From Phlyctochytrium arcticum (taxonomy: Eukaryota; Chytridiomycota; Chytridiomycetes; Chytridiales; Chytridiaceae): a stretch of DNA of 64,000 nt. Below are positions 2,434 to 42,688 of this stretch, piece by piece (position 1 is the first letter of the stretch; the number at the start of each line of letters is the position of its first letter). The DNA is taken from assembly GCA_025602905.1 (NCBI GenBank), contig JAHLKI010000052.1, positions 29,594 to 93,593 on the forward strand, written 5' to 3'. Both the position numbers and the translations under genes were made by a program. The notes beneath the pieces were generated by a model that saw only the letters and a list, made by a program, of their open reading frames with translations, did no database searches and was not told the origin of the DNA.

Positions 2434-2750
2434 AGAGCCCCTCAGTAGAGATGCTAACGATGGCCGGACATTGATTTTAAAGTACAACACAGACACTTTA
2501 GAAACCAAAGGTGGGGTATTGAATGTAAAAACGACTAGTCCAGCAGTCAATAGTCCTTTGTTCATAAACGACGATGGCGAGATCGAACTTCAATATGCGA
2601 GTCACTTTCAAGATGACCAAGGGTTGTTTGACGCCGACGGGAGTCTGCTGGCCAAAGGATTGTCACTCAACATCACCGATCCCTTTAAGTTTGATAGCTT
2701 AAATAGTCACCGATTGTCGTTGAAGATTGACACTTCGTCCTTAACCCTTA

Positions 2751-3690
2751 AGCGACTCATGGTCGGACACAACGCGAAACGGGATGCCTTCAAGATAGGG
2801 CCTCCAGACCCGGAGCGCGTCGTGAATAGCCAAAAGCTCCTGCTCCCTAATATCATATCTGGTCTCAGCAGGAGTCATTTTTCGAGAATGGAAAGCGACG
2901 GGTTTAAGCCCACTGCCGTCGTCTTGCCCCAACCATGCCCCTACAGCAAATCCAGACGCGTCAGGAGAAACCGTAGTGGGGAGACTGGGGTCAAAATGTC
3001 GGCGAACTGGAGCGGTCGTGACCAACTCCTTCAATGCGTCAAAAGTTTTCTGTTGCAACTCTCCCGATACCCATTTCTGTTCATGCTTCAAGAGGTCAGT
3101 CATGGGGGCCGCGATAGCAGCTAGGTTCTTCAGGAACGAGTGGAAGTAGTTGACTAATCCCATAAATTGGCGTACTTCCGAAACGTTCTGTGGCACTGGC
3201 CATTCCTGAACTGCCTGGACTTTCTTTGGGTCTAACTTGACGCCCTCGGGAGTAACAACATGCCCAAGGAAGTCAACCTCTTGCTTGGCAAACTGGCATT
3301 TTCCGGGGTTGGCGTATAACTTGTGTTCTCTCAAGGTCGTGGGGACTTCTTGTAAATGTTGAACGTGTTCTTCCGCTGACTTAGAGTACACAAGAATGTC
3401 GTCTAAGTAAACTATGACCGATTTGTCCAAGAACGGTCGCAACACGTCATTCATTAGCGTCATGAAGGTTGCTGGTGCATTTGTCATCCCGAACGACATA
3501 ACCAGGCCTGAAAGCCGTCTTGGGGACATCGGCCGGGTGTACCCGGATCTGGTAATAGCCAGACTTCAAGTCGAGTTTCGAGAACCACTTGGCACCGGCG
3601 AGCCTATCCATTAGCTCGTCAATGCGCGGCAAGGGATAGCGTGTCACAGTGCGAGTTTCGCGAACACGCGAACCTAGCAAGTCTATCGGG
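2751..3690 (-). mobile_element. Ty3/gypsy reverse transcriptase-RNase H fragment, antisense, frameshifted
   Basis: On the minus strand, in order: [40 protein letters not shown], then after a frame change [15 protein letters not shown], the catalytic YLDD box (VIVYLDDILVYS), FLGHVV, and an RNase H start (SPDASGFAVGAW; YDIREQELLAI; VSDHESLKG). These are hallmark blocks of a Ty3/gypsy polymerase. A small deletion near 3500-3530 removed the RYG-type block and shifted the frame, so it is inactive. No LTR, primer-binding site, protease or integrase accompanies it, and I see no target duplication. Only the polymerase core seems to have been captured inside the fibre-like gene. Confidence 0.88.
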
Positions 3691-4189
3691 TGGATCGCCT
3701 ACCCTACCCTCCTTATCAATTACAGGTGACCTCAATACCCCCATTCTGAGCAACCTTAATAACAGAGTTCTAATAGACGAACCGGCATCTCGAGGCACCT
3801 TATCAAGCGCAGCCATTTTAGCAGGAAATGCTTCTTACAATCCGACGACTGGGGTCATTCAAACTATCGACGGCAATGGGAACAGAGAAGGCAGAATACT
3901 GTACAAGATTAACCCCGGAAATTGTTGGGTTTTTGAAACTGAATATAGATGGAACGGCGTAGGCGACGGTAGTTACATATCTTTTTATCAACCTACAACA
4001 GCAAACACCTATTCTAATGGCGCGAATCCATCTTATGGCTTCCAGTTTGCGCGTTTTTCACAACAGACAAGTTTGAAGACTCCGAATGGTGCTGTGGCAG
4101 GACCGTCATATCTGACGATCTTTCCCAATCCAAATACTTGGTACAAGATCAAGATTGTTTACAACAATGGGAGCCTACACAACGACGGC

Positions 4190-4554
4190 CTGTGGATGTC
4201 GTGAACGGTACACAACAGCCGGTTCCAGAAAAAGAGCCCAAGCTCCACACGATCGAATTAGGTACAAAAGTGAGATTGATTCTTAATCGGAACAAATTTT
4301 CGAAAGGTTATGAAGCTCGTTTTACCAAAGGGTTATATTCCGTCACTGGCAAAAAAGGAAACCGCTATCTAGTGACTGGTAGGGACGGGCTTGAAAACCG
4401 CCGAAGCTATAAAGAGTCTGAGCTTCAAGTCGTTTTGGATTCTCAGAAAATCCCTGCAGGAGAGCGAGAAAACGAACGCCTGAGAGACATTTCTCTGCAG
4501 CTACCAACCGGCAAACAAGTTCCCAAGAAGAAGATACCTTACGGGGCAACTTGA
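4190..4554 (+). pseudogene. Polinton/retroviral-type integrase C-terminal (SH3/chromo-like) fragment
   Basis: The frame running to 4554 contains LGTKVRLILNRNKFSKGY, then FTKGLYSVTG and a closing YKESELQVV. This follows the pattern of the SH3-like C-terminal domain of integrases: G-x-K-V-R, F-x-K-G-Y, E/K-x-F-x-V, and a final fY-x-x-E-L. It resembles those of Maverick/Polinton elements more than gypsy chromodomains. It begins within about 15 bases of the end of the lectin frame but in a different frame. A deletion therefore seems to have fused a truncated fibre gene to a truncated integrase. The catalytic DDE core is absent. Confidence 0.5.
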
Positions 4555-4577
4555 GTTGCCAATTTCGGACTCATCAA

Positions 4578-5183
4578 ATGGATCTCCCCCTCGACCTCCT
4601 TCGTACTCAAATGGATGGGATTTTCGCCCATCCTTCTGAGCTAGCCCTTCTCGCAGAGGGATCCACTCCACGACACGGGCTTTTCTGGAAAGGTCCCCGT
4701 AGGGGTCGCTGGACGCACAGCACACGTAAAGAAGGACGCATCACAATGCTGCTGGGTGGCCAGTCAGACAGCGACCCTCACCCATACATACCACCAGAGG
4801 AAATCTGCCTTGATGAAGATCGGACAACAAATGTTTTCTCCTGGGTAGGCATTTTCGACGATTCGGTAATTGAGGTCTGGTTCACAACCTTGACCAAAGC
4901 CCAAAATCAACACGGAGAGGTTGAAGTATTCGGTATGCACGATCTAATTTGTTCGTATCCCATCGCCAATCATTCTTTTGGAATGGTCATTGGGGCGATA
5001 CTGCGTGATATAAAGAACTATTATTTCGCGAATCAACAATGCACTTCAGATTTTGTTTCTGAATGCATCAGATGCTTATACTGGGACTTGGTAGACTGCA
5101 CAGAGGAACTTCGGGGTAAGGCCAAATCGAATGCAGTGGAAACAATTATAAAAAAGATCACCGGAGTCCGAATCTGTATTTAA
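4578..5183 (+). CDS. Hypothetical protein, intact frame next to the virus-like block
   Basis: An open frame of 201 residues from ATG 4578, in the same direction as the virus-like relics. I recognise no family. The second half (about residues 65-200) has a regular globular composition with Trp, Cys and aromatic residues (FSWVGIFDDSVIEVWFT; ECIRCLYWDLVDC). The first 55 residues are less protein-like, and an alternative ATG at 4746 would remove them. It may be a surviving gene of the virus-like element or a fungal gene fragment. Confidence 0.35.
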   Translation: MDLPLDLLRTQMDGIFAHPSELALLAEGSTPRHGLFWKGPRRGRWTHSTRKEGRITMLLGGQSDSDPHPYIPPEEICLDEDRTTNVFSWVGIFDDSVIEVWFTTLTKAQNQHGEVEVFGMHDLICSYPIANHSFGMVIGAILRDIKNYYFANQQCTSDFVSECIRCLYWDLVDCTEELRGKAKSNAVETIIKKITGVRICI

Positions 5184-5639
5184 CCATTTTGATGTATTTT
5201 GTAATCTATACAACTTGCTCGTCGGCTTTGCAGGGTCCTCTGTCAATCGTGTCTTTCCTTATGTCCGAGTCGACTGAGCCAGATTCAGCGCGCTGCAGTC
5301 CGCTTCGCGGATTCTGAGCAAAGCTCAGTCAGCCGCTACTCGAGTATTCCAACCTCCTCAGCCGGATTCAGCAAATGAAACTACACGCCTTGCTCGGAGC
5401 CTCGGAATAGCAGCTGATGGGAACCGTCGCTGAATCCAGCCGAGCAGGATCGAATCACAGCTGATTCGGACCAATAAATCAGCGGTTTGTCACGAGATTA
5501 CTCGCTGGATCCAACCGAGGAGGTTCGAATCACGGATATTTAATTAGTAACTTTTAGTCTCAAAGTGAAGGCACCCTCAGACTCACTCCCAAATGCCACT
5601 GACATTCGCTGTCGTTTCCTTTGTCTCCTCGCTATAGAA
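5184..5639. other. Intergenic repeats upstream of NAR1, with two Pol III B-box-like motifs
   Basis: The stretch holds related direct copies (around 5430-5470 and 5506-5535) sharing GGATCC/GAATCCA-ACCGAG-AGG-TCGAATCAC, and an inverted partner near 5352-5371 (CCTCAGCCGGATTCAGC). The motifs GATCGAATC and GTTCGAATC match the tRNA B-box pattern GWTCRANNC, but no tRNA cloverleaf can be folded. A TACTCGAGTA palindrome lies at 5337-5346. This could be a SINE relic; otherwise it holds the NAR1 promoter. Confidence 0.4.
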
Positions 5640-7289
5640 ATGGGATTCTCTGGAGCAGTGGTACTGTCAGATCTTGACGACTTTATCAATCCTTCTCAGG
5701 CCTGCATCAAACCTGTCGAAGTGCAAAAGAATGGGAGCAACCAGTCCAAGGACATTCGGGTCGATGCTGGCAATTACTATGAGGTCTCGCACGACGGTAA
5801 CGAGACCAAGCTGGACACTGCCAGCATATCTTTGGACGATTGTTTAGCTTGTAGCGGATGTATTACTTCGGCGGAAAGTGTGCTTATCACCTTGCAAAGT
5901 CAACGGGATCTGTATGATGTTTTAGCTGCTAACAAAGCAGCTGTACAAACAAATCAACCCCAGGATGTCAAGACAGTCATAGTATCTGTGTCTCCACAAT
6001 CGCGAGCTTCGCTTGCCGCTAAATATGATCTCACACCAATAGAAGTGCACCGCCGTTTGCTCTGGTTCTTCAAGCAGTTTCTCGGTGTGCATGATGTATT
6101 TGATACGGCCTTTTCTCGTGACTTTGCCTTGTTGGAAAGCGCGAAAGAGTTTGTGAGGAGGTATTCCGCAAAGTACTCAGTTCAGCCAGGGGTGGGCCAA
6201 ATCTCTACAAATACAAGCGGCCCCCTTCCCATGCTGGCAAGTGCATGCCCGGGTTGGATCTGTTACGCGGAGAAGACGCACGACCACTTGCTACCATATA
6301 TAGACTCCACTAAATCACCACAGCAAATCATGGGCTCACTAGTGAAGAACTATCTGGGGGACCATCTGGGTGTGCCACCCAACCGAATATACCATATTAC
6401 TGTCATGCCGTGCTACGACAAGAAACTGGAGGCATCAAGACAGGACTTTTTCAACACGGATTTCGATACGCGTGATGTTGATACGGTCATCACGACGGGT
6501 GAGGTGGAAAAGATGTTCACAGAACAGAACGTTACTTTGACAAATATGGAAGAAGTACCCATAAACAGTCTGTTCACCAAAGCAATCGCAGGATCTGAAA
6601 ACATTATAGACAGTGCTCTTTCTATACCGCTGTTGGTCGGAACCGAAGGATCTTCCTCGGGTGGATACTTGTCCTATATCCTGCGATACGCGGCGTATAC
6701 CCTTTTTGGAATAGTCTTGACCATGGAGGACGTCGAAATGGGGAAAAATGGTGTCGAGGTGCGACCAGGCCGCAACAGCGATTACACGGAGTACCTATTT
6801 CATCTACCCCCGGACCACCCGCGACGACCATCCCACCTGCCAGCAGACCCAGCTGTTCCCGTGCTGAGATTTGTCGCCGCATATGGTTTCCGCAATGTTC
6901 AGAACCTCGTTCGAAAACTGAACCCAAAATCGTCAGCCACGGTTCGTCGCCGCAATGCGGCCTCTTCTTCAGCGGGGAACGAATACCATTACGTTGAAGT
7001 GATGGCTTGTCCTTCCGGTTGCATCAATGGTGGAGGGCAGCTGAAGCCTGCTAATGCGGAGACTGCTACCCTTACAGATTCGAAAGCATGGATCCAAAAA
7101 GCGGAAGATTCATATAAATCTGTTGCTGAGTCTGCTGGTGTACAATTCCCAGAAGCCAATGCAGCCATAGAATTGCTCTATCAGGAATGGTTAGGTGGTT
7201 CGGATACCTCAAAAGCCAAAGAGATGCTGCACACCAGCTACCGTGGCCTCGAAAAGGCAAATGTCAGCGGTCTAAGCGTCAAGTGGTAA
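5640..7289 (+). CDS. NAR1: Cytosolic Fe-S cluster assembly factor NAR1 (NARFL/CIAO3, hydrogenase-like)
   Basis: Single-exon gene, 549 residues from ATG 5640; the family start is MxFSxAVxLSDLDDFI. NAR1 is an [FeFe]-hydrogenase-like protein of the cytosolic iron-sulfur assembly machinery. It links the NBP35/CFD1 scaffold to the CIA targeting complex. Seen here: the N-terminal Cys22 (ACIKP) and the Cys68-Cys71-Cys74 cluster (DCLACSGC) that bind the first 4Fe-4S cluster. The hydrogenase-like core follows, with CPGW, MPCYDKK and the closing CPSGCINGGGQ, which hold the second cluster. Length is normal for the family. The open frame extends upstream to 5565, but the family alignment favours 5640. 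Confidence 0.95.
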   Translation: MGFSGAVVLSDLDDFINPSQACIKPVEVQKNGSNQSKDIRVDAGNYYEVSHDGNETKLDTASISLDDCLACSGCITSAESVLITLQSQRDLYDVLAANKAAVQTNQPQDVKTVIVSVSPQSRASLAAKYDLTPIEVHRRLLWFFKQFLGVHDVFDTAFSRDFALLESAKEFVRRYSAKYSVQPGVGQISTNTSGPLPMLASACPGWICYAEKTHDHLLPYIDSTKSPQQIMGSLVKNYLGDHLGVPPNRIYHITVMPCYDKKLEASRQDFFNTDFDTRDVDTVITTGEVEKMFTEQNVTLTNMEEVPINSLFTKAIAGSENIIDSALSIPLLVGTEGSSSGGYLSYILRYAAYTLFGIVLTMEDVEMGKNGVEVRPGRNSDYTEYLFHLPPDHPRRPSHLPADPAVPVLRFVAAYGFRNVQNLVRKLNPKSSATVRRRNAASSSAGNEYHYVEVMACPSGCINGGGQLKPANAETATLTDSKAWIQKAEDSYKSVAESAGVQFPEANAAIELLYQEWLGGSDTSKAKEMLHTSYRGLEKANVSGLSVKW

Positions 7290-7599
7290 ATTATCCTGCA
7301 CAGAATATCCACTCTTCACTACTTCTCGCGTAGTTTGTACATATAGATTTCTATTTTCAGTTGCCCGCTTGTAATTTTCGGCCGGCAACGTTTCAGATAG
7401 TTCGATAGCATATAATTAATCACTCCTTCTGCGTCACTCATTCCACTGGCTCCACCCTGACTCTAAATGTGAACCGATCCTATTACACTCCTAATAAGAA
7501 TAACTTCACCATGAATGGATCATCTCAAGTTGAGTTGTTGTATTAAATAGCTCTACATGAAATTGGTAAGATGGAATGAGTGCAAGTCAATGTAGCGGT
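7290..7599. other. Convergent 3' region between NAR1 and mS29
   Basis: About 310 bp of AT-rich sequence between two convergent genes. I see no further gene. Confidence 0.6.
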
Positions 7600-9446
7600 C
7601 TAAATTGAGGCGGCCGCACGGCGGTACACTTTCAGAGCGTTTCCGCCAGTCACCGCAAGGAACTTCTCAATAAGTGGGCGATTCAATTTCTCTATTGAGG
7701 GGAAGAGCAATTTAGCAAATCGCAGAGACAACAGGGTATTTGACAATGCACAAACCTTCGCGCAAGACACCAGCGTTTTGGTAGAAATGAAGAGCACTGG
7801 CAATTTCAAACAAGTTGTACGGAGGTAATTCCCAGACCTGGAATTTTTGGGGGATGGTCTTGATTGAAGACGTGTATGGGTCGTACGTCTCTGGGGACAA
7901 AGTCTTTGGCAGAAGAGCGCCATACGGACTAGTTTCAGGAATGGGTTCTTCTGAGCTATTCAAGTTGGTGGTAGTCTTTGTAGAAGATGATGCGCGGGAT
8001 TGCTCAGCGGTGATGGCGTTGAATAATGGGGCTTGAATATAGGTGTCGCTGTAATCTTTCGCGCCGACGATGGCGGAATTGATGGCCTTCTGCGGAGAAG
8101 TGAGGATGTTGTTAAAAAAGTTTACAATCGACAAGCTGGTTGCAAGAATCGGCTGGCTCTCGGTGTCCCGATAGGCGGTTTTGCTGTAGAAAGTGTTGAT
8201 CTGGTCGATGGCCAACAGAAACGGCCTGCAAAAATCGTAAGTCAACTGGGGGGTATATCGCGAACCTCCCACGTACTTATCCTTTTGGGCGAGCAACGTG
8301 TTGACAATCTCCTCTAATGCCTTGTGAGCGCGGGCAGAGTTCTTAATCCCTTCATTGGCTAAATCCTTTAGCGTCTGACCATTGGTTGTCTTAATCTGCC
8401 AAAGCGTAAGAAAGTCATTGGCCTGGCGTCATTCAAGTATATACGCACCGATGATAAGTCCTTGTTTAGTGCTAGAAACTGAGTCAGAAGCCCTGACACC
8501 AATTCAGGCTGTTCGTACAGCTTTGTGTCTTTGACGAGAGCAAATGGTTGCGTTCCATCTGTCCATACCGTTGCTGAAACATTCGTTCAGTTGGACGAAT
8601 AACACTGTGTTTCCGAACGATCATAACATACTCTTTGGGATATACATGGTAATCCAGCCTTGCTTGCGGAAATGGCTCGCCAATTGCAAAAGCGCAACAG
8701 ATTTGCCTGCTCCTCGAGGTCCATCTGAAAACAGGTCGTTAATCATCAGCAGGAAGAACAGTTGGTGGCGGGGAAGGAAGGACCTATTATGACTGGAGTG
8801 CTGCTAGCTTTGGAAGAGGATGTGATCTTCTGAATTAGATCTAATGTGGTTTGTCGAAGCATGAAGGCGAACTGGGGCTAAATAGAGAGAGAAAGTATTT
8901 GGTCAATCAACCAATGCTGATAATGTCTATACAGATGCGTGCATCACTTACATGGCTGGCAACGGTTCGGGAGAATGAATCTTTGGAGATGGCATCCGTC
9001 AGATCATTTGGGATCCGCAAGACCTCCCCAACATTCGTCTTGACAGCCTTTTGCTACAAGTGCCTCCATCAATCATCTCATCGTTGTGCTTGTCCGTCTC
9101 CCAAAAACCTACTGGCACCCATTCCCCTAGATCCAGCGACTCTCCCAGTGGCTCGATGTGAAGTTTTGAGTCCTATGTGTTGAAGCGTGAGTGCCCGTAC
9201 CCAAATTACAACAAGGACCAGCAAATACCCCGCGGAGCTCTTCTTCTCGCAAGGTCGTAGAAGTCTAGTTGGCAAACCGTTTAGTTTAAAGCTTTGACCG
9301 GCCTTGCCCTTCGAGAGATAAACAAATACCGTATGCAATGTTTGAGCTCGTCCCACACTCGACAGAACCTTTGGCCCGATTTGACTAGCTCTTTGAAGTG
9401 CCGAAACTCGTCCTCTCGATGCACATCGCCAGCTTGAGCGCAACAT
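7600..9446 (-). CDS. Mitochondrial small-subunit ribosomal protein mS29 (DAP3 family)
   Basis: Eight exons on the minus strand: 9330-9446, 9113-9172, 8952-9053, 8784-8871, 8632-8724, 8449-8573, 7756-8395 and 7600-7691. They join in frame to about 438 residues. All introns are GT-AG and 53-157 nt long. The N-terminus (MLRSSWRCASRGRV) is Arg/Ser-rich like a mitochondrial presequence. The P-loop is GPRGAGKS, assembled across an intron, followed by SVALLQLASHFRKQGW as in DAP3. The C-terminal half has PFLLAIDQINTFY (Walker B-like region) and the family ending VTGGNA. DAP3/mS29 is the GTP-binding protein of the head of the mitoribosomal small subunit. The 8396-8448 intron could be read as only 26 nt; the 53-nt version ending TTGGCAG is preferred. 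Confidence 0.88.
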
Positions 9447-14150: not shown

Positions 14151-14438
14151 CGTCTGCGTAGATCCCTGCCGGACGTTGATTCCCATGATTATCTGGCACT
14201 CCTCCCGGCCACATTCTGGCGATTCCTCAATCCGAGAGTCAATCGCTGAATTGGCCGCCAATCAGCCAATCCCTGGCCAATCCCTGCGCCGCAATCTTCT
14301 AGAAAGAAAATATAGTCCATCAAGCAACGGAAACGGTGAACAAAGTGTGCTGAAACGTGCACCACTTGCGCAGGGGGTTCAACCCTATGAAAGTGGAAAC
14401 CACTCGTGCCAATCGGTTTGTGCAAATCTATGCTGCAC

Positions 14439-14904
14439 ATGTCAAAGAAGCTTGCTGAACTTGCGCAGCTTTTTATGCAATCTCTGGTATTATATGAGCC
14501 ATTCAGCGCCTGGACGGACCAGACAGGTCAATCAATGCACATCAACGATTTCGAATTTGCACTTACCGGGTAGTTTCAGATGTCGCGAGTAGTGATTCTG
14601 CAAGCGAACTATTGCCAATCATCAATAACTTGGCAACCCTATTGCCGAAAGAGCTAAATCGGAAGACCACACTCCTCGCAATGGGCGTCGATGAGGATTC
14701 AGAGAGCTTGTTGCCGGACTTGTCTGTTTTCCTGGACGACGCACTCCAGCGACTCATGGTATAACGCAGTCTCCTCATTGTGTTGTACATATCGACCTTA
14801 TCATTAAATCTATGGAACAGCCGAAGGAAGTTGTGCTGGCAATTAGGTTGTTGCGAGCGAGCGGTCGTGACCTCCAGTCAACAACGTCGCTGGAAGAAAA
14901 ATAA
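14439..14904 (+). CDS. Small hypothetical protein, three exons
   Basis: Exons 14439-14526, 14574-14758 and 14821-14904 join in frame to 118 residues (introns 47 and 62 nt, GT-AG). The product is mostly helical with no transmembrane segment (KLAELAQLFMQSLVLYEPF; LLPIINNLATLLPKELNRK; VVLAIRLLRASGRDL). I do not recognise it. Small helical subunits of kinetochore or adaptor complexes have a similar look, but that is only a guess. A different-frame stretch downstream (14905-15292) might be an alternative C-terminus. Confidence 0.5.
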
Positions 14905-15292
14905 ACTGGCTACTACTAGCTTCTTCGCACCTATCTCCTCCCAATCTTCAGAATCGTCCCAAGATCTCGCTTCAACAACGCCAGGCAGTACGATTGATCT
15001 CTCCTCACCAACGCATGAATCCCCTACTGATATGGCCACCACTCCAACAAAAAGCACTGCTAACTCGGAATCAGTGTTGGTAGAATCTTTGGATCAGAGA
15101 ACCCGTGACGATCTTGTGGAAGGTCCTGTAGAGTTCCGTGCTGCACCCACTCCCGCCGAGGTACCAGAGCCAAGAAAGCGCAAAAGGCATGGCATGGGGA
15201 CTGTCTTCCATTCCCTTTCCCTACCGGAACGCGCATCAAGTCCCGGAAGCATCCTTGAAGAATTGCCCGATTTGCCATTCCCAGATTTCTGA
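14890..15292 (+). CDS. Ser/Thr-rich open frame, possible alternative 3' exon
   Basis: The frame overlaps the last codons of the preceding small gene in another phase. It encodes a Ser/Thr/Pro-rich, disordered stretch with a basic patch (PRKRKRHGMG) and an acidic end (EELPDLPFPDF). I could not find a splice pair linking it cleanly to the upstream exons. It could be the real C-terminus of that gene after a missed intron or indel. Confidence 0.3.
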
Positions 15293-16516
15293 GTCTACCC
15301 CATTGATGCTGCTCACGGCCACCAGGAAGCTCCTCTGAAAGAGTTCCCTGTTCTGTCGCATTTCTTTCTCAAGGTATGTACTGTTGAACGCTTTGCAGCG
15401 CACATGTATTATCTTGTGTTGCGATCTTCCTTTCAATCTATGCATACTCTCGATCTCAAATGAACCTTGCTATAAATAATGTTTGCCATGGGTACTTTGA
15501 GTTTTGACTATTGTTACAGTCTGCCACGTAATAAACCAACTTCTGCTCCCCTTTTCTCCTCTTTTTCTCCCTCTCCCTCTCTCGGAATCTCTCCTTCTTC
15601 CTTTTTCTCTCTCTCTCTTCTCTATTCTTTGGGCCAGAAAAAAGTCCAAATATGGGATGATAGCCATTTGTTGGCATATGTACATATAATGCTTTCTGGC
15701 TTGTCATCCTTACTGTGGGGCTAGTAAATTACATTCTCAATGCGCCTATTCAGTTGATACCATGTGGCCGTCGGTTCAGCCACTGTTATAGGATGCACTG
15801 AATTTAAGATGCCGTTCACTCAAGAGGTTTCATATGGTGGGTATATAGGTTTTCGCCATCTGGAAATCGTAGGCATCCACGACGTGAGAATTACAACCAC
15901 GCGCCACATAACATCCTACTCATCGCGCCGAATGGGCGCGGGATACCACATGAAAGGATTGCCGATGTGATGTAGAGGTTTAGTCAATTCACAAGTCGGT
16001 CGGCAAGGACACAGAGTAAAAAGATTGGCAATGCTCATATCTTAACAATTGTCCGGGCTTATCTTGTTCTTCGACTTGGCACAATAAAAAAGACATTCAA
16101 GCAAAAATCTACATTGGAAATTCAGATTAGGCACATCTTCACGGTGCTATATCATCACGCAATGTTTAGGGGTTCGGCAAAACCCTCAACCTCGCCGCCA
16201 AGATTTTGACAGGCATAGCCCTAGCTCGACATCTGACATTTCAGTTCACTTTGACAGCCGTGTTTTGACGGCCCTCCCTCGCCCTTCCGCCCCATATAAA
16301 TTCGCGAGCTCTTCCCTGTTTTTCGTTTGGCATTATACTCGTTTCTCGTTTCTCATCTATTGCATTGAGCACACAATTTCGCTACTCTCGCCTTTTCATC
16401 GGCCCATTCACTACTCTCAAATCTCCCATTGTTCAACCCGTTCACCAACACCACGCATTAGTGATTTTCCCGGACACACTTTTCTGTTCTCTTCTTGATA
16501 TTCTCACCATTTCATC
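15293..16516. other. Long 5' region of the Fanzor gene; CT microsatellite
   Basis: No gene is visible. A pyrimidine-rich (CT/TTC) microsatellite spans about 15,540-15,620 and creates false frames on both strands. A short GC stem (CGCGCC-GAAT-GGGCGCG) lies near 15,927-15,943, and an AGGGGTT...AAAACCCT hairpin lies near 16,168-16,187. The last 220 bp are the likely promoter and leader of the Fanzor gene. Confidence 0.5.
16294..16300 (+). promoter_or_regulatory. TATA-like box upstream of the Fanzor gene
   Basis: ATATAAA in the context CCCCATATAAATTCGCG lies 217 bp before the start codon at 16517, followed by a pyrimidine-rich leader. Confidence 0.45.
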
Positions 16517-19500
16517 ATGCCCAATTTCTACGTCACCCGGAAAGTCGGTCGCCTGAAGAATCTCATCAACCCAGCCATCCCACCTGCTCAAGCTACCACC
16601 ATCGTTAACCACCTTAAAGCAGCAGCTCGAGATCTATCCGCCGCAGTATTTGACGCCTACAATCTACTAGCGATCCATCACCAACGTCAAGCTGGCCACT
16701 TTTTGGACCAATGTCGCCAGTTGCTGCGCAGCAAATAGCACCAGTTCCTGGAGGTATGTATTTGTCGGGCGTTTTCAAAGACTTTATGAAATCCTCACAC
16801 CTGTTTCTACATTAGGTATTTTGGTACCGCAAAATCTCGCTCTTGAAGGATGCCGCAGCGATCAAACCTTTTTCCGCAACGTCCTCTTGCAATCTATTGG
16901 TCAAAATCCACGTCAAAACAACCCCTTCCTTTCGGCAAGCTACGACAACTTTCTCCGACCCGCAATGACTACCGGATATGTGCCAACTGTCCCGCCTGCC
17001 GCCCCTACAGCACCAGTAGCGGGTGCGCCTCTGGTCTACACGCGACCCGTATACACTCACGGATTCAACCAACTTTTTTCCATCGAGGCACGAAAGATCA
17101 AAAACGCGTTTTGCCGCTTGGTGGTCAGCGGACTACCCAAACACCTGGAACAGACACTACTACATTACTTGGAACACAGCAATACGATAGGGGCCACTCT
17201 GGTTACTCGCAATGAATTAGGTATGCATCGAAATGTTACTAAAAGGAACCCTTCTCATTACTCACGCCCGCTTTTCATATTTACGTAGTTCGCCGAACCA
17301 TCTGTTTACTTGAACCATTGTACCTCTTGTCTTCGGAACTTTTTGGGGTCGGTCAACATTCGGTGAGCGTGGGAAATCCTTTGCTCTTCGCCGGTTTGCT
17401 CGACTTTGCCGACCCGAATGCGCAGCAAAACTATGTGGAATTTTTGCAGTAAGTTCAAATTACTTCTTCTCTTCATTCATCATGATGTATACTTACAAAT
17501 TTGCCCCTGTAGACCGATTGTGGAATTGTGTTTGTGGGCCGCTCAGAACATTGCTTTGGATCACGTACACGACCCGACCATGGCTGTAGCAAATACTTTC
17601 GATGCGATGAGTGGGGAGCTCAGGGGAAGTGGATGGCAGTGGGTCCGACTTATCAAGACATCCAACGCCCGTGCACACTTTCTTCTACCTCTTCTACAGT
17701 ACTTGTCAGAGTGCGCGCACCGCCCCCAACACATTCCCGGCCAGCGTCCCCCACCTCGCACTCTCAAACACGTCAAACTGTCACCGGAAAGGACGAGTCG
17801 CGGACCCGATTATGCCCAATTCGACTTCCGGGCGCTGTGTGAGACATTGGGCCATAGGATGAGAGATAATCCAATTTTTGCATCGGTGCTAGGTCAAGAT
17901 GGACAACAACCACTCTTGCCCGCTATTACCACACAGTGCACAAGACACCCCGCGGCTCGTTTGGATCTCATCGCCCAAATTTTCAACATTGGCAAGGTCA
18001 AGAGCCTGCGACAGATTGTTCCGGGTGCCGCTTGGACCTTCCGCAACCAGGGTATCAGTATGCCATTTGACAAAATGGGCATTCTTACCAATGGCGACAA
18101 TACCATGTTGGGATTCGAAGTTCAACCACCGGCAAATTTTCATCGTGAGTATTAGATATTTTGTTGCTAAACTGAGCGGCATCATTCTAAAATGAGATTT
18201 TGTTTTTTGTTCCCGTCCTTTCATAGGTCGCATTCCCACGATCGAGGAACTGAAGGACCGCGATCATGCAGCCCATGCCGAACATCGAATCGTACAAAAT
18301 CCCGATCAAGCTGGAGGCGCATTACACCAACTCAACCGCCGTCCTATCCTTCCCGCTGCCCGTGTTCTCGTGCTGCCCGGTCCAGCTGTTCCAAGTCCAT
18401 ACGGGCCCACCGCAACCGTACCCCACACGCGGCCTGTTATAGGAATCGACTTTGGTCAAAGATTCCAAGCGGTCGCAGTGCGGGACAACTTGGCATCTCT
18501 GGCAAACGCGACAGGAAATACCCTTCAAACCAACCCTCATCAGCAAGCTCAACTGAGACAACTCCATAAGGACAGAAGACGGGAGGCCATCACCAGAGTT
18601 CGGGGACGTCAATATCGAGAACTGGACAAGTCGGCGTGGTTTGAACGAAAAGACGCTATCCGGAGGTCCCTGGAGACGCAGCGTAAGACAAATATTGGGG
18701 ATAATTTCATATTTATCGCAAACTTATACATTTTTGTTTCACAAAATTGATCGACAACCTCCGAGGCCGCGCTGATGCACTGTGGGGTGCTGGAGTTACC
18801 CAGGCCATCAACTACTTGAGTAATGCCTACGCGCAGCTCGACCAAATTCGCAACCACTTCTTTTCCTCCTTCCACTACCGGGCATCGGTAACAAGATCGT
18901 CTTACCAAGAGCGGGCACTCGACCTCACGGCTCGCTCTCTCCTTTACCCAACCCAACTCAATGCTCGCGGCCAGACACCAGCCAAAGTTCTCGAGCAGAT
19001 CGGCTTCCGCCGGGATCCCAACACCAACCAAATGTTGTCCCGACCAACCCACCGCCAACAAACCCTTCCTCCCATCATCCGCCCTGCTGCACCAGCACCC
19101 ATTGCCCCATCGTCGCCTGTGGATGGGCCAACTTTACCTGGGCCAACTTTACCTGGGCCAGAGGCCAACCCAGTGTCCCAACAAAGTCCTTGGCGCGCTG
19201 TATGGCCGTTCATGGCGTAACCGTTGTTATGATGCCCGAGAAGGGGACCACCGCCGCGGACTCGGCCCGGCTTGTTCTGTATGAGGAGTTGGTAGTCGGA
19301 ATACCAGCGTGGGGAATCCCGGCGGGGACTCGGAAATTGGATGCGGGGGCTACCACTCCACTTCTTCAGGACAAAGTGGTGTGCACCACTCACAGAAAGA
19401 AATACGTTTGGCGGGCAGATCACATTGGAGGACACCGCATCCGGCAGTACTGCGTTGATCTTGATGGGATTCTCCGGCACCCAACATCATCCTGTCCTAA

Positions 19501-19873
19501 CCGCTTCGTCCGTCACAATCAGCCAAATGGACGACTTCGAGTAAGCGTAGGCACCAACAACAACCCACCTTTCCCATCCGTATTTTCCCAAAATCCCTGC
19601 ATCCATGACCGGGACATCAATGCCGCGATGGAGATGGGCCACTCTCTTTGGCACTATTCGACGTTTGGTGGAGCTCGCCTTCCGTGGAATCTGCCCGATC
19701 ACTTCAACTACCCTACTTTACAGAAATGGTACGTTGAATTGTCCTCTGATTCATCATTGTGAAAGAGCCGCTCACTAACCATACGCTTTCCTTCTTTCTT
19801 TTTCCCTCCCCTCTGCACTTCCTTGGTTTCTCACTCACTCCGAACTCCCGAATCTAGGGTTGGCGTAATGTAA
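16517..19873 (+). CDS. Fanzor (eukaryotic TnpB-like RNA-guided nuclease), one frameshift
   Basis: Proposed exons are 16517-16712, 16816-17220, 17289-17448, 17513-18144, 18227-18682, 18766-19728 and 19858-19873, about 942 residues. Fanzor proteins are eukaryotic relatives of transposon TnpB and use an omega-RNA to guide RuvC cleavage of DNA. Seen here: a helical N-terminus, RuvC-I with Asp ~539 (VIGIDFGQRFQAVAV), RuvC-II with Glu ~775 (VTVVMMPEKGTT, cf. the family pattern E-x-x-TS), and RuvC-III with Asp ~900 (CIHDRDINAAMEMG, cf. DRDxNAA). The zinc-ribbon region between II and III has scattered Cys (CTTH, YCV, SCP) rather than clean CxxC pairs. Codons ATG GCG TAA at 19212-19220 stop the frame; reading continues one base back into RuvC-II, so one base is missing or mis-sequenced. 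The first intron (103 nt) is uncertain; a 26-nt plus 62-nt pair is the alternative. The last intron ends TCTAG and leaves stop TAA at 19871. Confidence 0.82.
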
Positions 19874-40299: not shown

Positions 40300-42688
40300 C
40301 AGCTCTTTTCTCGAAGAAGGAACACCTCTGCCACAACATGGACAAAACAGATAATATTCAGAAGGAACGAACCGTCAATTTATCAGTGGCAGTAGGAGGC
40401 ACAAGCTACCATGGGAATTCATACGACACGGAGGACGAACGACGTACGAATGTTGATTTGGCTGCTCAACCGTGAGGGGAGATGTTGAAGTGGCCGGTAA
40501 ACTAGAAAAAAAGATCAACGGATGCGCAACCGACACCTACGGAAGTATGCAGCAAAACACGCCCCAAACAATATTTGGAAGGAACGCACTGGGAACCTGT
40601 CAGTTTTGGTCGCGGGCAAAAGTTAAGTAAGAGATGTCGTATGACACGGAGGATGGACACCGCACAGCAATCAATTTGGCAGCGCGGCTCAAGCAGGATA
40701 CATTGAAGGTTGCCCCCAACTACGCTTCGGAGGAGGCAAACATCAAGATCCCCAAGTTTTTCAAGTCCATTCATTTTTTGCATTATGTTGTGTGGGATCC
40801 GGTCAGCTCCGCTATTTTTTGCAAAAGCGAAATGGACAACTTTTTCAAGCATTACGCCCGCTTGAATGAAGAGGGAAGTTTTGGGAAGGTTTCCGCGTAC
40901 TTCGGTCTGCTGCAGACAAATTAGCGGGGAGCCTTACACTTTACACTACTTCAATATGACCACTACCTTTCACCTTACACGAACAACCTTAAAAGCTCCT
41001 CATCTACTACGACGCCTGCGAGACTTGTTACCGTCATGAACTTTGTGCAGCGAATGCCCCCGGCTCAGAATGAAAGGCTGCAGCAACTGTTCGCGAATGC
41101 AACATATGATGGTGAGTACTATGCATCTTGTTACTTCATTTCATACCTACGATGTGACTAAATATTCAATTCTTATTTACTTAGGTGGTCTTCCTTTCAC
41201 ACTATACGAACAGCCCAGCATGCACAAAGCGCTACTTGCGCTCAACTCTGCCTTTGTCCCACCCTCACGAAAACCATTTGGGGGGAAATTTCTGACTCGA
41301 ACATATGCCACCATGAAAAGACAGGTTGAAGATCTTTTTGCAAATGAAGAAGACCTCTGTTTCACCACCGACGCATCAGACAACATCCGAAAAGAGCGTA
41401 TTGTCAATCTCTCAGTCATGGCGGCGGACAAATCGTATTATTGGCAGTCTTACGATACGGGGGATGAGAGACACTTGGCAGAAATCTTGGCAGCGCGTCT
41501 AAGGAAGACATGCTGGCTGTAGCTGGAGGAAAGCTGGAAAAGATCAACGGCTACTCAACCGACACTTGCTCTACTATGCAGGCTATGTGGAGGATCCTGA
41601 AGGCCGACCCCGACTTTGTGAAAGTCTTTCCGATCGCTTGCGCAGCGCATGTGTGCCAACTTTTCATCAAAGACATACTGGGGCTGCCAGCGTTCGTGAC
41701 CGCTTTCAAGAATGCGTCGGCCATTGTATCTTCTTTACCGGGTCACCACTGCAGTATGCCGCTCTGAAGGCCATCCAGAAAGCGCAAGGACGAACAGAAC
41801 CACTCAGTTTTGTCAGATCTGTGGGAGACCCGCTGGGGAACCCAGCTGGGCATGGTTAACCGCCTCATCAAGCTCAAGACAGCCGTCCAAATCTATGCTC
41901 ATGACTCCCGCTGTGCCTTCAGCGAAGGGCTTCGGAGCCGTGTCCAAAACTTTTGAGTTCTGGTCAAGTCTGGGACGAGTAGCAAGCCTGCTACAACCGA
42001 TGGACAAGACAATCCGACAATCCGAAGGGGTCCGCAACCACTTTGGGCACGTCTTTGCCGATTGGGTCACCGACTACGTACGGTACGGAGCAGCTGATTC
42101 CTGCAACAGACGCCATGTTCCTCAAACCAAACAGATACCTACGGAGCAGCTGATTCCTGCAGCAGACGCCATGTTCCTCAAACTAAACAAATACCTACGA
42201 AAAGCACTCCAGAAACCGGTCAACTCACACGCAACAATCCTTGACCCAGTGGCGCTCACGGGATTTGAAAGGTTCGATGGCAGTACCTGTGCAGCGATGC
42301 GCACATATTGCCCACAGCCTGGACCCCAAGTACTTGGAAGGTATGCAAGTTGGAAAGTGCCTGACACTTTTTCTCCAACGGGCACCCATATACACCCGGG
42401 ACAACCACGTCGACCTCCAGAATCAAGCAATATGGGAGCTCAAGGATGACTCGATTGCATTCTGGACCATCGCACGGAAGGTCGTACCAGCTCTCGGCAA
42501 TGTGGGCTCGCCGCGTCTTCAAACTACCAGCAACGTCGGTTGCAAGCGAGCGATCCTTCTCCGTCCAGAACTTTATACACAGCAAGAAACGGGCTCGCCT
42601 CGGACAAAAGAAAGTGGACCAACTGTCATTTGTCTACATGAACCGGCGATCATTGGCAGGTAGCAAGTATGAAGACCTTGAAGCATAG
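40300..42688 (+). mobile_element. Decayed hAT-family transposase, with internal partial duplications
   Basis: From ATG 41036 an exon (RMPPAQNERLQQLFANATYD), a 76-nt GT-AG intron and a long second exon encode a DUF659/hAT-like core (LCFTTDASDNIRKERIVNLS, INGYSTDTCSTMQAMW). The frame is then lost. The C-terminal hAT dimerisation block survives at about 42,520-42,688 (ATSVASERSFSVQNFIHSKK, LSFVYMNRRSL). Upstream, at 40,340-40,720, shorter stretches repeat the same core (NIQKERTVNLSV; SYDTEDERR; SYDTEDGHR), so pieces of the element were duplicated. A near-identical 60-bp block is repeated at about 42,087-42,180. Multiple frameshifts make it inactive. Terminal repeats were not identified. Confidence 0.8.

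Follow-up and report, generated by a model that had tools for sequence, protein, structure and literature searches.

Fanzor1 proteins, as defined by Bao and Jurka (PMC3627910), carry the motif D-X(125,275)-[TS]-[TS]-X-X-[C4 zinc finger]-X(5,50)-RD, and the same report already describes Fanzor1 genes of 5 and 10 exons in the elements CRe-1 to CRe-3. According to Yoon et al. (PMC10711439), the fingerprints of Fanzors are DPG and an alternative RuvC2 glutamate, along with a TDG motif in the WED domain of Fanzor1; in their account DPG is near exclusive to the RuvC1 of Fanzors, the alternative glutamate (Ealt) lies 6 residues before the zinc finger, and DFG is typical of TnpBs, not of Fanzors. Saito et al. 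(PMC10432273) described SpuFz1 together with its right-end omega RNA. GtFz1, as reported in PMC11423790, has an Asn as its third acidic residue and retains cutting, and thus single departures from these marks need not kill activity.

In this study, we analysed a stretch of 64,000 nucleotides from the chytrid Phlyctochytrium arcticum, hereafter the window, and found that positions 15912-19839 probably hold a transposable-element copy in decay, its one long gene being for a divergent nuclease related to Fanzor1, the open members of the family being most likely Fanzor-like. Three RuvC-like motifs, IGIDFG, MMPEKGTT and DRDINAAM, had been pointed out by a sequence-only reading of this DNA; they are real, lie in order at the places then given, and are conserved. 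Such a set does not arise by chance, since the same protein matches 21 further places in the genome. The multi-exon structure, which that reading also brought out, is not new for Fanzor1 in view of CRe-1 to CRe-3 (PMC3627910).

Searching the genome twice with protein queries yielded 18 and 50 matches at exon level, which were grouped by eye into 22 places including the window (E <= 0.001; C12:663414, at E 0.08, was left out). Ten copies were read through and an eleventh, L040, was compared base by base, the remaining places being search fragments only. One relative, L039, has a complete frame of 960 residues in eight exons, with seven GT-AG introns of 47-82 bp, which bears out the large size earlier proposed for the protein. 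Of the 11 differences between L040 and L039 in 3633 bp, none an indel, one falls just outside the right end; the 10 substitutions inside the compared part of the element change 5 residues, and L040 is open over the 954 codons checked, showing a recent duplication of an open copy. Protein identity between the two clades of the family, A and B, is 41-43%. The dN/dS ratio (NG86) was 0.11-0.27 in the 8 scorable of 11 pairs, 5 of the 8 being rough values with dS near 2 or more. The pairs with dS < 0.7 gave 0.27 (L039-L046), 0.27 (window-L033) and 0.19 (L034-L038) by NG86, and 0.32, 0.33 and 0.22, respectively, by YN00. These low ratios, from pairs whose dS is not saturated, favour selection on the family protein.

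The acidic residues D553, E786 and D919 of L039 are invariant in all five aligned rows, and so are four putative zinc ligands (C826-x2-H829-x20-C850-x19-C870 in L039), which would bind zinc. Several of the published Fanzor1 marks are present. From D553 to T789 of L039 there are 235 residues, within D-X(125,275)-[TS]-[TS], and the five rows have TT, TS or SS at the latter position; 47 residues separate C870 from R918-D919, within X(5,50)-RD, with RD in four of five rows and SD in L037 (DSD in place of DRD). As expected of genes encoded by transposable elements, the copies are dispersed and have a common right end and differing flanks. The RuvC2 glutamate retains the ExxT[TS]/ExxSS spacing and aligns to the Fanzor1 ExxTS in hhalign, with the finger displaced: instead of a C4 finger directly after [TS][TS], the first ligand of L039 comes 35 residues after TT. 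Furthermore, DFG replaces DPG in all ten read-through copies, and TNG replaces TDG in all five aligned rows (T459-G461), a site equated by order, not by structure; likewise, LTNGD of the window copy is equated with the TDG mark from motif order only. The proposed Fanzor1-type assignment thus keeps its motif order, size, many exons and mobile element, whereas three published marks are altered and no Fanzor/TnpB profile of Pfam matches. On the points tested the family falls outside Fanzor1 as defined, and the best reading is that its members work like a Fanzor. Among the papers listed by literature searches, 40 of 82 in one case, none reported a DFG/CHCC Fanzor variant, although hyphenated 'Zinc-Finger' spellings may escape a search.

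These changes also bear on whether the protein could descend from a Fanzor but have lost RNA-guided DNA cleavage, its fold being kept for, e.g., RNA or DNA binding in element control. The displacement of the zinc finger and its change to C-x2-H/C/C, the loss of DPG and TDG, and the DSD of L037 would all fit such a descendant. We nevertheless consider it unlikely, given the invariance of the three acidic residues in five rows and the purifying selection on the protein; moreover, a third residue other than Asp is tolerated in GtFz1, as reported in PMC11423790.

The gene and element coordinates of the window copy are given in Table 1. Its ATG was confirmed on the sequence, and the sites and phases (1,1,2,1) of its first four introns are common to L033, L034, L035 and L038 in spliced alignments, made with a home-made program that aligns protein to DNA, allows GT-AG introns and penalises frame breaks.

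Table 1. Coordinates of the window copy and of selected features in related copies (window positions unless a copy or contig is named)
Feature	Position	Strand	Remark
Upstream stretch	14296..15911	+	97-98% to closest copy, L033 (C8)
5' non-coding element end	15912..16516	+	In common with L034 (86%) and L038 (88%); bodies far more diverged
Exon 1, relatives' model (MPNFYVTRKVGRLKN...)	16517..16753	+	Break near 16720; in-frame TAG 16736-16738
Exon 2	16816..17220	+	Spliced alignment to relatives
Exon 3	17289..17448	+	Spliced alignment to relatives
Exon 4, with LTNGD at 18084-18098	17513..18144	+	Spliced alignment to relatives
Exon 5, with RuvC-I IGIDFG	18227..18682	+	Spliced alignment to relatives; motif 18439-18456, Asp codon 18448-18450
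Introns 1-4, GT-AG	16754-16815 (relatives' model), 17221-17288, 17449-17512, 18145-18226		
Intron 5, relatives' model	18683..18744	+	Donor GTAAGA retained; acceptor AG 18743-18744 lost, present in L033
Last coding exon, end approximate	18745..19699	+	Frame change near 19106; RuvC-II MMPEKGTT 19229-19252 (Glu codon 19238-19240); RuvC-III DRDINAAM 19607-19630 (Asp codon 19613-19615); putative Zn ligands C 19382, H 19391, C 19451, C 19493
3' region remnant	19700..19839	+	Retains ACAGAAATG|GTACGT and CACTAAC
Right ends with hairpin, 5' splice site, CACTAA and AG-poor tract to ATAG|TA	L039 5474-5731; L034 6145-6340		
Clade B left end joined to clade A body	L035 local 7012-7902 and 3641-6830		
Split right end of one copy	G000:C43:60063-60220 and 67443-67515		7.2-kb insert, 8-base overlap

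The earlier reading gave the gene of the window copy seven exons with agreeing phases. With the splice sites of its relatives, exon 1 runs into the TAG, and the frame changes near 19106, where L034 and L035 of clade A read through with no intron and the clade B relatives have an intron close to the equivalent position. The spliced aligner fitted four introns and three frame changes to the window, the latter corresponding, by the relatives, to a break near 16720, the lost acceptor of intron 5 and a break near 19106. A deletion has removed the normal stop, the residues after ...FNY and the hairpin present in relatives; roughly 60 bp at the element's terminus are also missing, so that the copy has no right end, and its frame continues after the deletion to a stop at 19760-19762. 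Homology to the element stops near 19839, so that an exon reaching 19873 would extend outside it. Part of the supposed Pro-rich linker comes from reading, in another frame, a conserved stretch whose product in relatives is CGWANFxWAxGxxSVPTKSLAR.

Seven exons with agreeing phases, not necessarily the set first proposed, can indeed be joined so that the frame stays open from 16517 through RuvC-II to a stop at 19760-19762, although this depends on three substitute splice sites, two of them scoring below the family minimum. The donor at 16686 (GTCAAG), which avoids the TAG of exon 1, scores 2.4, within the range of 55 family introns. The acceptor at 18765 (AG 18764-18765) keeps the frame and scores -1.3 against a family minimum of 2.9, and the donor at 19037 (GTCCCG; acceptor 19095) scores -1.3 against a minimum of -0.7, the matrix being derived from 55 introns of nine copies that are not mutually independent. 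A full-length protein from the window copy is therefore possible but unlikely, and we call the copy probably decayed instead of broken because substitute sites can bridge its breaks.

That it is still a working gene, through these sites or because its breaks are single-base read errors, seems to us quite unlikely. The in-frame seven-exon reading exists, and a dN/dS of 0.27 to the closest relative implies that the protein was selected until lately. However, two of the three substitute sites score under every one of the 55 family sites of the same kind, and the lost acceptor, C-terminal deletion and missing right end are not run-length errors. Decay is, moreover, common in the family, with breaks or stops in eight other read-through copies: L033 and L035 have three breaks each, L036 and L041 two each, L037 one, L038 two (and is cut by a contig end), L046 five and a stop, and L034 two stops and no break, counts for which substitute splice sites were tried in the window copy alone among the nine disrupted copies. 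The window copy is thus presumably inactive, in contrast to the working gene that the earlier reading implied.

Profile searches recovered little. No Pfam family, Fanzor/TnpB profiles included, passed the cut-off with the window model or L039, and PF07282, which has 15 matches in the genome, has none at the 22 places of the family; a PF07282 search of the genome misses it entirely. Searches of PDB sequences with a single sequence and with a profile gave no credible match (best with the profile, a reductase at E 0.31), and there was no phmmer or hmmsearch match between the family and SpuFz1. Among viral contigs, two scans with the family alignment and one with L004, a canonical Fanzor1 of the same genome (C2:594541), found no relative at places holding exact patterns, and neither did a scan of prokaryote contigs, which sees only places holding a few exact patterns. 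The genome also holds genes or pieces of Fanzor1 type (L004, L005 and L008) and of Fanzor2/TnpB-like type (L002, L003, L006 and L007), typed by eye, so several Fanzor types coexist in one genome (L001-L008).

Comparison of alignments by hhalign was more informative. The family alignment matched L004 over the RuvC-III segment (E 0.002, probability 14%); ten family cores matched five Fanzor1 C-termini over the RuvC-II segment (score 31.1, probability 14%); and the ten cores against L004 alone gave the RuvC-III segment (score 33.7, probability 30%). In 150 column shuffles per comparison, the highest scores were 23.1 for the five Fanzor1 C-termini and 26.2 for L004, with 13.6 for the reversed alignment; three Fanzor2/TnpB-like C-termini from this genome gave E 0.57. 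The RuvC-II and RuvC-III segments are distinct, each in register with the catalytic residues, the first at ExxT[TS] of RuvC-II and the second from RuvC-III through GGxR. Against a Fanzor reading stand hhalign's own probabilities of only 14-30% and the differences of DFG, TNG and the displaced CHCC from the published marks. We take the family as homologous to Fanzor1, short of structural proof, and as Fanzor1-related rather than a proven Fanzor1.

Alternatively, the protein might belong to another RNase-H-fold family, such as a RuvX/YqgF-like resolvase or another transposase, that has converged with Fanzor in short motifs. The sole Pfam listing, RuvX at a sub-cut-off E = 0.23, lies at RuvC-I of our first window model, and DFG is, in the account of PMC10711439, what one expects of a TnpB and not of a Fanzor. 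The RuvX listing vanishes with L039, however, for which nothing is listed up to E 10, and D-X(235)-TT, ExxT[TS], RD-N and the C-terminal GGxR match Fanzor1 in register, making this alternative improbable.

That the family is a mobile element is evident from its right end, ...ATAGTA, which is common to five clade B copies and to L033, L034 and L035. It reads GGTTCGAATCTTTGCGAATATAGTA in L037, L039, L040, L041 and L046 of clade B and CGTCAATAGTA in L033 and L034 of clade A, with differing flanks in both, and TTGAATAGTA in L035, which has its own flank. A search with 267 bases of the right end reached the border (query position 258 or later) at seven of eight places; at the eighth (C43) it stops short, and the remainder is found 7.2 kb further along, overlapping by 8 bases, showing that an insert split that copy. 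On the left side, GCGTGGCTCCAATAGCG occurs in L036, L037, L053, L054 and L055, and further upstream bases are common to some of them. This recurrence at five places speaks for a real left end with a fuzzy exact border rather than for 5' truncation as in LINEs, which the variable left ends may still reflect. Inspection by eye of L037, L039, L040, L041 and L046 revealed neither inverted repeats nor target duplications, and a search with the joined L037 flanks for an empty site matched the occupied site only. Upstream of the L037 gene, the longest stop-to-stop frames inside the element have 116 (+ strand) and 154 (- strand) residues. A Helitron origin was rejected: none of the 101 Helitron_like_N matches listed for the genome is inside a family place, and no TC/CTRR ends were seen by eye.

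Upstream of the window copy, 14296-14884 also matches C8:517683 (94%) and C8:648448 (97%, longer) with an identical first base, and 14296 is a possible left border of a larger unit. Elsewhere the window holds a 258-bp repeat at 15408-15665, found at four other places at 81-87%; a weak Helitron_like_N remnant at 40787-40942 (E 1.9e-4, below cut-off, one stop); and, at 2741-3565 (-), a frame resembling a retroelement reverse transcriptase by eye. The genes of the window, again by eye, have a fungal look.

The 3' region has features of its own. After the stop, a hairpin UGGCACA(C/G)...(G/C)UGUGCAUC is present in six distinct copies; 40 of 40 scorable cells pair, and the two gap cells are both of L033, which has a shorter stem. 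Both sides are altered in one of seven pairs; the covariation score is attained in 52 of 500 shuffles and the count of compensatory pairs in 356 of 500, and covariation support for this stretch, picked by eye, is slight. Except in L035, the hairpin is followed by ACAGA(A/T)ATG|GTA(A/C)GT, a branch-like CACTAA site and an AG-poor tract to the border. The exclusion of AG before the right end (P 0.04-0.29 per copy, with one AG in two of six copies and L035 lacking the donor) is suggestive only. Predicted folding of the 3' region was not stronger than that of shuffled sequences (z 0.12 and 0.49), and Rfam had no match in the window at gathering scores. The 3' motifs may be part of an omega RNA or form an intron-like 3' end; some fungal telomerase RNAs get their end by a splicing step.

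Comparison of copies in 200-nt bins gave an unexpected pattern, in which similar ends (mostly 83-99% identical) surround diverged bodies (50-84%). L037 and L041 are 83-99% identical before the ATG (39% in the outermost 23 bases), 58-76% in the body and 99% in the right-end 191 bases. For the window copy and L034, identity is 88-92% in the three bins adjoining the ATG but 66% in the 136 bases farthest out, and then 50-76% in the body and 94% on the right; for L039 and L046 it is 96-99% upstream (except for 80% and 35% in the two farthest bins), 68-84% in the body and 90-93% on the right. For window-L033, a close pair, the contrast is small, with 95-100% upstream against 89-97% for the body. By eye the introns are as diverged as the exons, so that the contrast seems positional, not coding. 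Furthermore, L035 is 93-96% identical from -1000 to -400 to L041 of clade B and only 42-46% to L034, whereas its body is of clade A (48-78% to L034 against 44-59% to L041). Exchange or conversion between copies would be the plain reading of these identities.

In the most likely scenario, the open members would encode a protein of ~960 residues whose large N-terminal half would correspond to REC and WED domains, followed by a split RuvC core with the D-E-D residues and an altered putative Zn-binding module. By analogy with described Fanzors, RNA from the 3' end of the element would serve as scaffold and the sequence just past the right end as guide, and the RuvC domain would cut matching DNA, such that the element is retained or copied by repair. 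If L039-type proteins do cut under RNA guidance, then Fanzors can do without DPG and the C4 finger, two marks regarded as near-universal among them; this would matter for understanding the RuvC and TNB parts and for designing search profiles. Old bodies between young ends would also offer a natural case to ask whether such nucleases drive copy exchange. It is tempting to speculate, though doubtful as a whole, that the family forms a Fanzor lineage of its own whose nuclease lobe has been rebuilt (DFG, TNG, displaced C-x2-H/C/C), that its elements swap whole bodies between homogenised ends, perhaps when nuclease cuts beside the ends are repaired from other copies, and that its 3' end, with hairpin, 5' splice site, CACTAA and AG-poor tract to the ATAG border, uses the spliceosome to form the end of a guide RNA or mRNA.

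Among known systems, the family resembles SpuFz1 of Spizellomyces punctatus (PDB 8gkh) and L008, which is close to it (E 4e-49), in its long N-terminal half, split RuvC, ExxT[TS] glutamate, RD in RuvC-III, G-R motif after RD, and mobile element. It differs from both in DFG for DPG, TNG for TDG, a CHCC set displaced by ~35 residues, the 7 introns and 960 residues of L039, and the lack of recognised inverted repeats. L004 is the best profile match and has FSxxxRGxxxxPVKxL, ExxTS, NRDxNAA and GGxRP in the same order, but also DPG and a zinc ribbon matching PF07282 (E 9e-9). Like CRe-1 to CRe-3 of Chlamydomonas, which are Helitron2-borne, the family combines a multi-exon gene of Fanzor1 kind with ends shared beyond the gene, although those elements, as described, were placed as Helitron2 by their ends and the present family has no such assignment. 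MCi-2 of Mucor circinelloides, as presented in PMC3627910, is also unclassified, with no recognised inverted repeats, uncertain 5' ends and a constant 3' end. Unlike the family here, with none recognised, it has 11-12-bp target duplications, and its Fanzor part is 99% identical between copies with variable 5' regions, whereas in P. arcticum it is the ends that are alike and the bodies that differ.
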